Assembly: GCA_017552435.1 (NCBI GenBank)
Contig: JAFZPZ010000073.1
Coordinates: 1 to 47,314, forward strand
Source: Bacteroidaceae bacterium
GTDB lineage: Bacteria; Bacteroidota; Bacteroidia; Bacteroidales; Bacteroidaceae
Direction of reading: 5' to 3'
DNA: 47,314 nt
This document shows, piece by piece, positions 1-46,826 of this stretch; the stretch's first letter is position 1, and each line of letters starts with the position of its first letter. The notes under the pieces were generated by a model. It was not told the DNA's origin. It searched no databases and saw only the letters and a program-made list of their open reading frames with translations. The position numbers and the translations under genes are program-made.

Positions 1-87
1 CAACTGGTCCACCATGTACTGATAGGTCTCTGCCTGGTCGAGGTAATTGAAGTCAAGTGCCTCGATTTGTTTTGCGTTGATGTTCAT
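1..87 (-). CDS. Start of a gene paralogous to the array-linked gene at 29647 (partial)
   Basis: Only the first 29 codons are in the window; the gene runs off the left edge. The start codon is the ATG at 87-85. The N-terminus aligns without gaps to the protein at 29647: both carry AKQI followed at fixed spacing by D, A and Y-M (8 of 21 positions identical, several more conservative). I infer it is a second member of the same family, possibly DUF6261-like; that name is from memory and uncertain. No signal peptide is visible. It sits just downstream of a 41-bp palindrome array, as the other member sits downstream of a 42-bp array. Function unknown. Confidence 0.6.
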   Translation of the reverse strand, partial: MNINAKQIEALDFNYLDQAETYQYMVDQL

Positions 88-126
88 AGTAATTAAATTT
101 AGTTAAAATATTTAACATTTCATGCC

Positions 127-413
127 ATATCGAACCGATTTAGGTTCATTTGTTAAATTTTGTAATCATATCGAATCGATATGAGTCCAACTGTTAAGAA
201 GTCTTAACATATCGAACCGATATGAATCGGATTGTTAACAGGTGTTAATATATCGGACCGATATGGCGTCACTTATAGAAAATCGGCATCAAATCGGCCC
301 GATATGAGTTCCCCGAACTTCCGGCGGGCCCAACTTGGCTTCGATTTGGATTCCCATGTTTCCGGCGGGCCCAACTTGGCTTCGATTTGAGCCCGCCCCG
401 CCTCCGCCGAGGC
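127..413. repeat. 41-bp tandem palindrome array (array 1)
   Basis: Units begin at 127, 168, 209, 250, 291, 332 and 373, exactly 41 bp apart. The first five carry an imperfect or perfect palindrome of the form ATATCGA-A-TCGATAT (127-141, 168-182, 209-223, 250-264, 291-305). Changes in one arm are partly compensated in the other (ATATCGG-A-CCGATAT at 250). Units 2 and 3 hold a second inverted repeat, TGTTAA...TTAACA, in the other half. Units 5-7 drift to GC-rich sequence, with TTCCGGCGGGCCC repeated 41 bp apart at 319 and 360. The array lies between the stop of the leucine-rich-repeat gene and the start of the partial gene on the same strand. Its role is unknown. Confidence 0.9.
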
Positions 414-29217: not shown

Positions 29218-29249
29218 GTTGCTTATATAATAAATAATGTGTATATTTG
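29218..29249 (+). promoter_or_regulatory. Promoter, family 1 (copy 3), reading into array 2
   Basis: GTTG (29218-29221), 20 bp, TATATTTG (29242-29249) followed by CA. It shares about 50 bp with the mntA-hepT promoter. Transcripts from it would include a 15-codon ORF and the 42-bp array before reaching the gene at 29647, a leader of about 390 nt. Confidence 0.7.
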
Positions 29250-29274
29250 CAGGCGGATAGCAAAAATTACCACT

Positions 29275-29322
29275 ATGGAGACAAAGGACAAGAGACTTCC
29301 CAAAACCGCTCCCAAGGATTAA
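29275..29322 (+). CDS. Possible 15-aa leader peptide
   Basis: ATG at 29275, stop at 29320-29322, peptide METKDKRLPKTAPKD. It is the first ATG after the promoter at 29218-29249 and precedes array 2. No ribosome site is obvious. Could be a leader ORF or chance. Confidence 0.25.
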   Translation: METKDKRLPKTAPKD

Positions 29323-29421
29323 CTATCCGTCCCGTCACAGACTAAGATAAGATACTGAGAGATTATGAGGAAAAAGTCAAACCAAAAAGACTCGCGCCCT
29401 CCGCCGGAACGGCTGCCGTGG

Positions 29422-29600
29422 GCCACGGAAGACAGAACTGAGGCTCGGGGCTAAATTCCGAGGGCCACGGAAGACAGAACTGAGGGTCTGAGCTAACTAC
29501 CGAGGGCCACGGAAGACAGAACTGAGGCTCGGGGCTAACTTCCGAGCGCCACGGAAGACAGAAATGAACCACGTGGCTGATTTCCGTGGGCCACGGAAGC
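29422..29600. repeat. 42-bp tandem palindrome array (array 2)
   Basis: GCCACGGAAG recurs at 29422, 29464, 29506, 29548 and 29590, exactly 42 bp apart. At each junction a palindrome forms; it is perfect in the last unit, TTCCGTGG-G-CCACGGAA (29582-29598, 17 bp with one central base), and has one or two mismatches in the others. The other half of the first three units (ACAGAACTGAGG...GCTAA) is also conserved; the fourth holds CCACGTGG. It ends 47 bp before the start of the gene at 29647. Confidence 0.92.
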
Positions 29601-29646
29601 AAAAAATAACAGAAAATTTATTGTTTAAAGTTAAAATTCAAACATT

Positions 29647-30588
29647 ATGGCACTTGACATATATGCCAAACAGATTCCAAGCATCGAAATCGGTAGAATG
29701 GACAACGCCACACTGCTGTCGTATATGAATACGGTGGCTGGTCATTGCGCTGCCGATGCTACGATGCAGGCCAAGCTGGGCAACATCTACACCGCTTTCG
29801 CAGCTTCGGCAAACAACTACGACACCGTCTATAACCCATCGCAGAAAGACTTGCTGACAGACGAGCTGAAACGGCTGGACGACATCCGCGACAAAGCTGG
29901 CACCGCCTGGCATACAGCCATCCTGGCCGCAACGAAGTCGCCCAACGCTACAAAACAGCAGATTGCCCTGCAACTGGTACAGCTCTACAAGGACTACCAT
30001 CTGGACGTAAGCGACGAGTACATGAAGCAGACGACGAACATCCAGCAGATGCTTCAATCCATCGAGGGCGACGCGACGATTATGGCAGCGCTTCCCGGCA
30101 TGGGACTGGACGAATTCCTGACCGACCTTAAGACGAAGAACGAGGCTTTCGCCGCCAAGATGGCAGAGCGCACGGCAGGCACCGTCGGCAAGACCACTGG
30201 CGTTGTGGCAGCCGCACGCCTCGACGTGGAACAGAAATACCGCACACTGATGCGCATGGTGAACGTCGTCTCGTCGTACGAAGGCGGTGGCGTGCTCGAC
30301 CAGTTCATCCTCGTGATGACCGCCGAGGTTGAGCACTACAAGCAGATACTGGCTCGCAAGGGCGTCTCCTCCGGCAGCAGCTCCAGCGGTGGCGGCGACA
30401 ATGGCACAGGAAATACCGGAAACACCGGAGATTCCGGAAACACCGGCGATAATACCGGAAATTCCGGAGATTCCGGAGAATCCGGAGATTCCGGAAACAC
30501 CGGCGATAATCCCGGCACCGGCGGTGATTCCGGCGGCGGCGATGATAACGGTGATGACAACAACGGCCCCATCGGAGACGCTGAGTAA
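29647..30588 (+). CDS. Helical protein of unknown function with Gly/Asp/Asn repeat tail (possibly DUF6261-like)
   Basis: 313 aa, no signal peptide or membrane segment. Residues 1-235 look all-helical and rich in Ala, Lys, Asp and Gln; 241-313 are a low-complexity tail of 'GNTGDSG' type repeats built from 9-bp DNA units. The N-terminus 'AKQIPSIEIGRMDNA' matches the partial protein at the left edge of the window. Both genes have a 41/42-bp palindrome array just upstream. The family resembles DUF6261 of Bacteroidetes as I recall it, unverified. No catalytic motif or classical DNA-binding motif seen. It ends in a hairpin shared with the convergent esterase gene. Confidence 0.65.
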   Translation: MALDIYAKQIPSIEIGRMDNATLLSYMNTVAGHCAADATMQAKLGNIYTAFAASANNYDTVYNPSQKDLLTDELKRLDDIRDKAGTAWHTAILAATKSPNATKQQIALQLVQLYKDYHLDVSDEYMKQTTNIQQMLQSIEGDATIMAALPGMGLDEFLTDLKTKNEAFAAKMAERTAGTVGKTTGVVAAARLDVEQKYRTLMRMVNVVSSYEGGGVLDQFILVMTAEVEHYKQILARKGVSSGSSSSGGGDNGTGNTGNTGDSGNTGDNTGNSGDSGESGDSGNTGDNPGTGGDSGGGDDNGDDNNGPIGDAE

Positions 30589-39409: not shown

Positions 39410-39793
39410 ATGGCACAATTCAAAGAAGGACTCCTTTACAGCGAGTCACACGAGTACATTCGCGTAGAAGGCGAATTTGGTTACATTGGTATTTCCGACT
39501 ATGCTCAGCACGCTCTGGGCAACGTGGTTTACGTTGACATGCCCGATGTAGATGACGAAGTTACAGCAGGCGAAGAGTTTGGTGCTGTTGAAAGCGTCAA
39601 GGCTGCCAGCGACCTTATCTCTCCCGTCAGCGGCACCGTCGTAGAGGTTAACGAGGCTCTTGAGAACGAACCCGAGCTCCTCAACAAGGACGCTTTTGCC
39701 AACTGGATTATCAAGGTTCAGCTCTCCGATTCCTCTGAGCTTGACAACCTCATGGACGCCAAAGCATACGAAGCATTCTGCGAGAATGCCTAA
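39410..39793 (+). CDS. gcvH: Glycine cleavage system H protein
   Basis: 127 aa. Lipoylation lysine K64 in AVESVKAASDLISPVSG. 'YSESHEYIRVEG' and 'IGISDYAQHALGNVVYVD' are typical. It shuttles the aminomethyl group among P, T and L proteins. Its stop TAA overlaps the first ATG of a heptamer repeat (TAATG) that leads to gcvPA. Confidence 0.96.
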   Translation: MAQFKEGLLYSESHEYIRVEGEFGYIGISDYAQHALGNVVYVDMPDVDDEVTAGEEFGAVESVKAASDLISPVSGTVVEVNEALENEPELLNKDAFANWIIKVQLSDSSELDNLMDAKAYEAFCENA

Positions 39794-39823
39794 TGTTCAA
39801 TGCTCAATGTTCAATGTTCAATG
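39793..39823 (+). repeat. Heptamer repeat at the gcvH-gcvPA junction
   Basis: Four ATGTTCA-type heptamers (the second is ATGCTCA) run from the gcvH stop into the gcvPA ATG. Every unit carries an ATG, in rotating frames. The identical 31 bp occurs at 42540-42570. Confidence 0.9.
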
Positions 39824-41137: not shown

Positions 41138-42540
41138 ACAATAGATTATATGGAAACCTGATTTTCGAACTTTCGAAAGAAGGCCGCAAAGGCTACAGCT
41201 TGCCGAAGAACAACTTTGGCGCTTACGAGATACCGGCTTCTATGAAGCGTGCGGAAGAGGCTCAACTGCCCGAATGCGACGAGCTGACAGTGGTGCGTCA
41301 CTATACGAACCTCTCGAACAACAACTTCGGTGTGGATACGGGCTTCTATCCCCTTGGCTCTTGTACCATGAAGTACAATCCGAAGATTAACGAGGAGATG
41401 GCTGCCCAGCCTCAGTTCCAGAACCTGCATCCGCAGCAGCCTGCTGACACCACGAAAGGTGCTTTGGCTTTGGTGACACTCTTGGAGAAGTCGCTCTGCG
41501 AACTGACGGGTTTGGCTCACTTCACCTTTAAGCCTTACGCAGGAGCACACGGCGAGTTGACAGGCCTGATGACCATCGACAACTACCACCGTTCTCGCGG
41601 CGATAAGGCTCGCAAGAAGGTGATTGTTCCTGATAGCGCTCATGGCACGAATCCTGCCTCTGCAGCGGTTTGTGGTTTGGAGATTATCGAGGTGAAGTCG
41701 CTGGCCAATGGTCAGGTCGATCTAGCCGACCTGGAGAGACTAGTAGAACTGGAAGGCTCTAGTATCTCCGCCATGATGATGACCAATCCCAACACACTCG
41801 GACTCTTTGAGACGCGCATCCCTGAGATTGCCAAGCTCATCCACGAGTGCGGCGGCCTGATGTACTACGACGGAGCCAACCTGAACCCGATGCTGGGTGC
41901 CTGCCGTCCTGGCGACATGGGCTTCGACGTGATGCACATCAACCTGCACAAGACGTTCTCCACGCCTCATGGCGGCGGCGGCCCCGGTGCCGGTCCTGTC
42001 GGAGTGCGCGAGGGCTTGCAGGAGTTCTTCCCCGTGGTTTCGCCCTACTTCGGCAACTTCGGCGTGATGATGCGTGCCTACGCCTACATTCTCTCGCTGG
42101 GTCGCGAGCATGTCAAGGAGGTAGGTCCGCTGGCTGTGCTGAATGCCAATTACATCAAGGAGAGCCTGAAGGATGTCTATGAGCTGCCCATCGACACGGT
42201 TTGCTGTCATGAGTTCGTGTTCGATGGCTTGAAGGACAAGAGTACAGGTGTCACCACGATGGACGTTGCCAAGCGTCTGCTCGACTACGGCTATCATGCG
42301 CCCACCATCTACTTCCCCTTGCTCTTCCACGAGAGTCTCATGATTGAGCCTACGGAGAACGAGAGCAAGGAGACGCTGGACGGCTTCATCGCCGTGATGC
42401 GCCAGATTGCCGAGGAAGCCAAGACCAATCCCGACGAGGTGAAGTCAGCGCCCCACACCACGCCCATCGGCCGTGTGGATGACGTGCTGGCTGCCAAGCA
42501 TCCTGTTGTGACGTATCGCCAACTCAAGGCGGAAGCATAA
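41134..42540 (+). CDS. gcvPB: Glycine dehydrogenase (decarboxylating) subunit 2
   Basis: 468 aa. Pyridoxal-phosphate lysine K273 in [17 protein letters not shown]; '[15 protein letters not shown]' is also conserved. It overlaps gcvPA by 4 bp, giving tight translational coupling and equal subunits. Its stop TAA again overlaps an ATG of the heptamer repeat leading to lpdA. Confidence 0.96.
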
Positions 42541-42570
42541 TGTTCAATGCTCAATGTTCAATGTTCAATG
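42540..42570 (+). repeat. Heptamer repeat at the gcvPB-lpdA junction
   Basis: Same 31 bp as at 39793-39823, with the same variant second unit, again starting inside a TAA stop and ending in the next gene's ATG. Confidence 0.9.
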
Positions 42571-46445: not shown

Positions 46446-46738
46446 GAGGCACTTTCCTGACGTTCGGAAAAGTCAAATTTCGCATTTTTCTGTCTAGTAA
46501 TTCATCTGGAAAGTCAAATTTCCCAAAAGTGGCACTTCCAGACGATGCGGAGACTGCCTCATTTCCAAAAGTGGCACTTCCAGACGATGCGGAGACTGCC
46601 TCATTTCCAAAAGTGGCACTTCCAGACGATACGGAGACTGCCTCATTTCCAAAAGTGGCTCTTCCAAACGATGCGGAGACTGCCTCATTTTCAAAAGTGG
46701 CACTTCCAGACGACTTAGCGGCTCGAAAACGACCACTC
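46446..46738. repeat. 42-bp tandem repeat array (array 3)
   Basis: GTGGC(A/T)CTTCCA recurs at 46529, 46571, 46613, 46655 and 46697, exactly 42 bp apart; the first two units are identical. The palindrome is short, AAGTG-G-CACTT. Older, degenerate units reach back to 46446, where AAGTCAAATTT recurs 41 bp apart (46470, 46511) and CCTCATTT-CA-AAATGAGG forms a further palindrome. Because 42 is a multiple of three, both strands look like open frames here, but that is a side effect of the repeat. Confidence 0.9.
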
Positions 46739-46826
46739 GCCGCGTGAGTGACAGGTGGCTCCGGCAGTGATTCCGGTGGTGGCCCTGGCTTATTATCGCT
46801 CGAAAAAAAAATAAAAACAGTTTTAT

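Follow-up and report, generated by a model that had tools for sequence, protein, structure and literature searches.

Genes for DUF6261 proteins in Bacteroidales are frequently preceded by an array of palindromic (dyad) units that repeat every 41 to 42 bp, and the word carried by the units changes together with the protein encoded behind the array. The occurrence of such arrays next to DUF6261 genes in many gut and rumen bacteria, each in a version that changes with its protein, suggests a cognate pairing of protein and DNA site. The uncharacterized DUF6261 family thereby gains a frequent genetic partner, the palindrome array.

The window, the whole stretch of 47,314 nucleotides that was analyzed, is one contig (C95) of a 3.5-Mb genome assembled into 129 contigs. 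It contains the following features.

1 to 87, minus strand: 5' portion of another DUF6261 gene that the contig edge truncates (29-amino-acid fragment)
126 to 265, minus strand: 41-bp array (period 41, 3.4 copies, 77% matches) with alternating dyads CATATCG-N3-CGATATG and TGTTAAG-N4-CTTAACA
29219 to 29249, plus strand: Bacteroidetes-type promoter-like site (TTG, 20 bp, TATATTTG), read from the sequence and matched by a scripted pattern
29275 to 29322, plus strand: short leader ORF METKDKRLPKTAPKD, read from the sequence
29365 to 29454, plus strand: leader ORF MRKKSNQKDSRPPPERLPWATEDRTEARG of the RPPP-bearing class, which stops inside the array
29416 to 29599, plus strand: 42-bp dyad array (period 42, 4.4 copies, 85% matches)
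29647 to 30588, plus strand: DUF6261 protein of 313 amino acids, with a helical core (about residues 1 to 236), a Gly-rich linker, and the C-terminal tag GPIGDAE
46518 to 46713, strand unassigned: third 42-bp array (94% matches), from the tandem-repeat search, with no DUF6261 gene behind it

The protein encoded at 29647 matched the DUF6261 profile (PF19775) with an E value of 2.4e-26 and 92.9 bits, above the curated cut-off of 27, and its gene comes last in the order promoter-like site, two short leader ORFs, 42-bp array, DUF6261 ORF. The 29 residues at the left edge are the same as those that open the DUF6261 proteins encoded on two other contigs of the same genome (C87 and C91). The first-pass annotation had claimed that both family members in the window have a 41- or 42-bp palindrome array upstream, each with a word of its own, and this was confirmed by the repeat search, by PF19775, and by folding as single-stranded DNA, in which positions 126 to 265 and 29416 to 29540 gave z scores of -5.01 and -4.45, respectively, against 200 dinucleotide shuffles. 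When the array at 29416 was searched against its own genome at an E value of 0.001, the single match was the array itself. Only its last unit holds a perfect dyad (29582 to 29598); read by eye, 8 of the 9 arm positions pair in the first unit, and each middle unit carries one or two mismatches. The promoter-like site, called with what we take to be the Bacteroidetes-type consensus, lies at -428 from the ATG by the scripted pattern, and likewise at -428 in a 98% relative (L202).

The third array is absent from the first-pass annotation, and its positions 46518 to 46660 fold no better than chance (z of 0.51, dinucleotide shuffles). DNA resembling that of a Gly linker follows at about 46756 to 46782 and gives weak short blastn matches to genes for tagged proteins (see below), and the third array is possibly the remnant of a lost tagged-gene locus. 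The protein encoded from 46889, downstream of this array, gave weak below-cut-off matches to EF-hand and leucine-rich-repeat models. Elsewhere in the window, a 7-bp tandem repeat, AATGTTC (4.6 copies), occurs at 39792 to 39823 and at 42539 to 42570, two gene junctions 2.7 kb apart.

Arrays at DUF6261 genes and elsewhere

DUF6261 was present in 5 of the 61 genomes of a genus sample and in 20 of the 198 genomes (16 of 151 genera) of an order sample, with a maximum of at least 18 copies in one genome. Named relatives comprised 14 loci in MAGs called Prevotella, Prevotellaceae, Bacteroidaceae, or Bacteroidales, many of them from rumen. The genome of the window gave 10 DUF6261 matches; 6 of the 8 with visible upstream DNA carry 41- to 42-bp arrays with their own words, as does the left-edge copy.

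For the survey, 108 of at least 141 DUF6261 places, in 23 genomes, were analyzed (21 of 27 from the genus sample and 87 of 114 from the order sample); the total is a minimum, as scoring stopped at 18 candidates in four genomes. Excluded were 5 contig-edge or fragment copies, a locus with an uncertain start (L044), one with little upstream sequence, and 26 further places. An array of 40 to 43 bp, or a multiple of that period, was detected by TRF within 600 bp upstream of 76 of the 108 genes, versus 4 of 105 downstream regions, 0 of 108 coding sequences, and 0 of 108 shuffled sequences (one shuffle per gene). This bears out the prediction of the first-pass annotation that most homologues would have 40- to 43-bp arrays upstream. 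With the left-edge copy and 10 of the 14 named loci added (of the other 4, 2 duplicate loci already counted and 2 are truncated), 86 of 119 genes have an array. Counting arrays of any period of at least 10 in the same gene sets gave 77 upstream, 11 downstream, and 3 in coding sequence; of the 77 genes in the upstream count, 76 had a base period of 40 to 43 bp, meaning that the repeats are helically phased. At least one marginal array went undetected by TRF, namely at L165, which is negative in the count of 108 but for which a 41-bp array was reported on the other strand. A 40- to 43-bp periodicity beyond that at other lags is kept by 16 of 33 array-negative genes, 1 of the 33 being not scorable.

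Periods of 42 bp (39 arrays) and 41 bp (27 arrays) dominate. A repeat of 42 bp is a multiple of 3, and the array is open in the frame of the gene at L051 and L044, as coding repeats of 14 residues in frame with the gene would be. Such a coding role is barely credible, however, given that 41-bp units are nearly as common and that open frames occur in 46 of 86 arrays on the sense strand and 49 of 86 on the antisense strand.

Arrays also occur away from DUF6261 genes. Twenty stretches of the window's genome, 400 kb in total and selected so as to avoid known DUF6261, HU-HIG, and tag matches, contained no array of 40 to 43 bp and 10 of 20 to 23 bp (7 scoring below 80). In the same genome, a 40- to 43-bp array lies downstream of a decayed DUF6261 copy (L008). 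The one-contig genome G255 had 16 arrays of 40 to 43 bp in a 400-kb sample that contains 1 of its 18 DUF6261 genes, and only 1 of the 16 adjoins a DUF6261 gene. One G255 word recurs at three places, two of them without DUF6261, and one of these two adjoins a gene that we take to be ruvB-like. Because of this recurrence, and because most of the sampled arrays lie elsewhere, the array is not confined to DUF6261 genes in G255. Arrays equally frequent at unrelated genes had been named as grounds for abandoning the pairing; they are indeed common elsewhere in G255, but DUF6261 genes remain highly enriched in that genome, with an array at 15 of 18 versus an estimated expectation of about 3%. Among the G255 arrays (loci L219 to L238, L261, and L262), some are downstream of other genes or perhaps inside ORFs.

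The numerous G255 arrays and the recurring word would fit satellite-like DNA that slippage and recombination produce, that is tolerated in the vicinity of DUF6261 genes, and that is now and then copied to other places, and so would the 11 of 30 tagged reading frames in the window's genome that run off contig ends. We nevertheless consider such an origin unlikely in view of the array-free 400 kb of the window's genome and of the base period of 40 to 43 bp in 76 of those 77 genes. The reading that we favor, tentatively and with somewhat less than even confidence, is that the array is a set of cognate DNA sites belonging to the gene behind it, which the DUF6261 protein or an obligate partner would bind. 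The 32 of 108 genes with no TRF-detected array and the arrays away from DUF6261 genes (in G255, at 46518 to 46713, and at L008) count against this cognate-site reading.

The dyad units as DNA or RNA

The units of the arrays are palindromic beyond column-permuted nulls, with z scores below 0 in 66 of 76 arrays and below -1.65 in 40, which is a further argument against satellite-like DNA. In 55% of 84 units, the main dyad scored at or above the 95th percentile of shuffled counterparts; its arms pair at approximately 2 to 8 bp from the dyad center, and the center is weakly constrained. A second dyad, 20 to 22 bp from the first, was present in 28 of 84 units versus 8.2 expected. In the proposed mechanism, an array would be a run of 16- to 19-bp dyads, with arms of about 6 to 7 bp and about 3 to 4 unconstrained central bases, spaced every 41 to 42 bp, and the second dyad, often half a period off (about 21 bp, two helical turns), would place the sites on the same face of the helix.

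An array of hairpin-like units could instead act as RNA, as a string of leader hairpins, a type III-like antitoxin, or an attenuator read with a leader peptide, and the first-pass annotation had offered a guide-like RNA as one option. The order of promoter, leader, repeats, and ORF in the window fits an RNA role, as does the finding that 14 of 120 upstream regions (2 of them duplicate records of a locus) have a proline-rich (RPPP) leader ORF just 5' of the array. However, nothing in the arrays pointed to selection for RNA hairpins. Mismatched arm pairs were G.T in 58 cases and A.C in 67 (p of 0.47), that is, with no wobble bias; sense and antisense strands fold alike (p of 0.68), with fewer G-U pairs on the sense strand (415) than on the antisense strand (511). 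This lack of wobble and strand bias is indirect evidence against a folded RNA. At 14 of the 86 arrays, a full promoter-like site was in reach: 8 of these sites precede the array, 5 separate it from the ATG, and 1 falls within it. A terminator-like site between array and gene, as called by a simple hairpin-plus-T-run script, was found at 3 of 86. In the 14 loci searched, the window locus (L005) included, no array matched Rfam above the gathering score, the only match being one tRNA, and PADLOC defense models gave 0 matches at an E value of 0.01 with the three proteins searched. Since there is neither wobble nor strand bias, promoter sites lie on either side, and terminators are rare, the array is better read as a DNA element, and an RNA role, the guide-like one included, appears very unlikely.

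The RPPP leaders occur in the window (29365 to 29454) and at L007, L042, L043, L046, L048, L202 to L204, L207, L209, and L214. The motif is often KDSRPPP and is common to distant DUF6261 subfamilies, and CCTCCGCC is present on the sense strand in the 14 RPPP-leader regions, with 0 on the antisense strand. The proline run could stall the ribosome.

Type III toxin-antitoxin systems (ToxIN, CptIN, and TenpIN) have a repeat array right before the protein gene, a terminator between the two, and a ToxN-like endoribonuclease (PMC5086642). DUF6261 loci resemble these systems in their upstream tandem repeats and in having their own repeat at each locus, and differ in the rarity of the terminator and the lack of an RNA signature. 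As for the endoribonuclease, the DUF6261 profile gave no match to PDB chains up to an E value of 1, and the predicted all-helical model had no clear match among known structures. The RNA or type III reading is disfavored because the mismatches lack an RNA bias and terminators are rare. No published description of DUF6261-array pairing turned up in listings of open-licence literature.

Array words and the proteins behind them

In 51 cross-genome protein pairs at a tree distance below 1.0, the mean word score was 34.8, versus a mean of 13.8 (standard deviation of 0.84, maximum of 17.7) in 2000 shuffles of the word labels; these pairs lack independence, and part of the co-variation could stem from linked DNA being inherited together. 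The expectation that the palindrome would covary with the protein clade was thus upheld. Among close homologues, the array was conserved by 4.6 standard deviations versus 1.5 and 1.0 for the flanks, a comparison in which repeated units give the aligner more chances. Partial correlations with the word were 0.23 for the N-terminal half of the protein and 0.28 for the C-terminal half, so that the N-terminus is not singled out. In L207 and L209, the two proteins agree at 229 of 245 positions, and 12 of their 16 differences fall within residues 1 to 60; between their consensus units, both dyad arms are swapped symmetrically (GG..CC to AA..TT). In such a pair, 93% identical and with a symmetric word change, a specificity code could be sought in a few residues. 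These patterns suggest that the word is specific to the adjacent protein, as in a pairing of protein and DNA site.

Recognition of each array by its own protein would be the most economical reading of this co-variation. The DUF6261 protein encoded downstream, as a dimer or oligomer, or else a DNA-reading partner, would bind its own word and turn the array into a phased row of nucleoprotein at the gene's 5' end, which could provide self-regulation and a locus-specific anchor. AlphaFold2 predicted the 29647 protein as an all-helical bundle (pLDDT of 82, pTM of 0.54, 15 sequences); its core has a pI of 5.2, and DUF6261 cores have a median pI of 5.8 and a median net charge of -4. Neither a DNA-binding fold nor a basic surface was found in the model or by charge, and this, with the acidic core, counts against the cognate-site reading. 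Direct DNA binding by DUF6261 is something that we infer from the array and not from the fold.

A general nucleoid protein, such as HU-HIG, could instead read the phasing or dyad shape and not the word, with DUF6261 as a passenger or co-factor. A constant period with varying words would suit such a reader, as would the acidic DUF6261 core and the HU-HIG genes of the window's genome, which have 20- to 23-bp arrays and encode the same tag. We find this doubtful, as the words of close homologues are kept beyond the flanks and vary symmetrically, and a reader of shape alone needs neither.

Iterons, parC centromere arrays, and plasmid operator arrays are short helix-phased direct repeats that lie beside the gene of their binder, with an own word in each system. 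The DUF6261 arrays are likewise helix-phased repeats adjoining a gene, each with its own word, and binding would be the corresponding step here; unlike those systems, DUF6261 has no recognized DNA-binding fold, and some genomes have at least 18 chromosomal copies. If the arrays serve plain autoregulation in the manner of operator arrays, the pairing would be a variation on a known theme.

A C-terminal tag shared with HU-HIG proteins

In four of the five genomes checked, DUF6261 proteins and HU-HIG DNA-binding proteins share a C-terminal tag that is specific to the genome. In the window's genome, a degenerate DNA pattern for GPIGDAE occurs at 30 places and its backward control at 0. Of 34 domain matches, 26 were used for the tag count, with plain HU proteins and cut ones excluded; GPIGDAE ends 18 of these 26 proteins (8 of 10 DUF6261 and 10 of 16 HU-HIG), and one more ends in GSGDME. 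The 18 ends are written in 13 different DNA spellings, synonymous by definition, and the tag is therefore conserved as a peptide. The tag of G032, GGLAG, ends 5 of 7 DUF6261 and 6 of 8 HU-HIG proteins examined, and its pattern occurs at 15 places, one of them (L308) chance-like. The tag of G033, NGME, is found on DUF6261 proteins L042, L046, L048, and L052, on the second piece of L050, and on 4 of 9 HU-HIG proteins examined; L054 of the same genome ends in DDGME. In G165, RPGIL ends all 3 DUF6261 proteins and 4 of 8 HU-HIG proteins examined, and the four without it include two plain HU proteins; the seven tagged proteins and one HU-DNA_bdg/DUF4469 protein are the tagged frames at 8 of the 12 pattern places. 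The exception is G171, in which DIIL ends 4 of 5 DUF6261 proteins and neither of its two long HU-HIG proteins. No comparable shared DUF6261 ending was seen in the remaining genomes examined.

The HU-HIG family (PF18291) resembles DUF6261 in being multi-copy in the same genomes and in its Gly-rich linker as well as in the tag, and in the window's genome it likewise has phased arrays. Of 24 genome matches, 23 were scanned (L091 was left out), and L098 and L109 were dropped for lacking upstream DNA or having cut ends; arrays of 20 to 23 bp were upstream of 12 of 15 long HU-HIG genes, two of them also detected as 42 bp, and of 0 of 6 others. The family differs from DUF6261 in having an HU/IHF-type domain and a period of mostly 20 to 23 bp versus 41 to 42, and its arrays are fewer and less regular in the four other genomes. 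Tagged HU-HIG genes had no 20- to 23-bp array in 4 of 4 cases in G165 and in 5 of 6 in G032, and array and tag are therefore separable.

SSB is a nucleic-acid protein whose flexible Gly-rich linker ends in a short conserved C-terminal tip that acts as a docking hub. The tag of DUF6261 and HU-HIG proteins likewise sits on a flexible Gly-rich linker; it differs from the SSB tip in varying by genome and in being common to unrelated families. In some genomes, the linker and genome-specific tag could dock a common partner, and a tag common to two unrelated families predicts an undiscovered partner of this kind in each tagged genome. By extension, DUF6261 and HU-HIG might form one Bacteroidales chromosomal addressing system, in which each protein binds a private phased array and the tag gathers the marked loci to the common partner, with words and specificities co-diverging and the tag diverging by genome. 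We hold this extension to be improbable. The mostly array-less tagged HU-HIG genes of G032 and G165, together with the G171 HU-HIG proteins without the DUF6261 tag, count against the cognate-site reading with its docking tag.

Several contigs of the window's genome begin within tagged genes at identical or almost identical bases (C25, C30, and C76; C13, C55, and C83; C87 and C91), and for this reason we think that near-identical copies of tagged genes with different linkers probably break the assembly. The linkers of L066, L078, and L079 contain segments of the form LTPDPSPxGEG, which may derive from another repeat. A palindromic repeat of the CCCCCTTTAGGGGG type lies directly 3' of the stop codons of six tagged genes (L065, L071, L075, L078, L080, and L082). 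One tagged protein of 410 amino acids (L087, contig C124) has no Pfam match and an 11/33-bp array in front of its gene. Finally, a frame of 33 to 35 amino acids resembling the "smalltalk" protein NF033879, for which one sequence was scored, follows 7 of 27 tagged genes examined, six of HU-HIG type and one DUF6261 (L059, L063, L066, L068, L071, L073, and L084).
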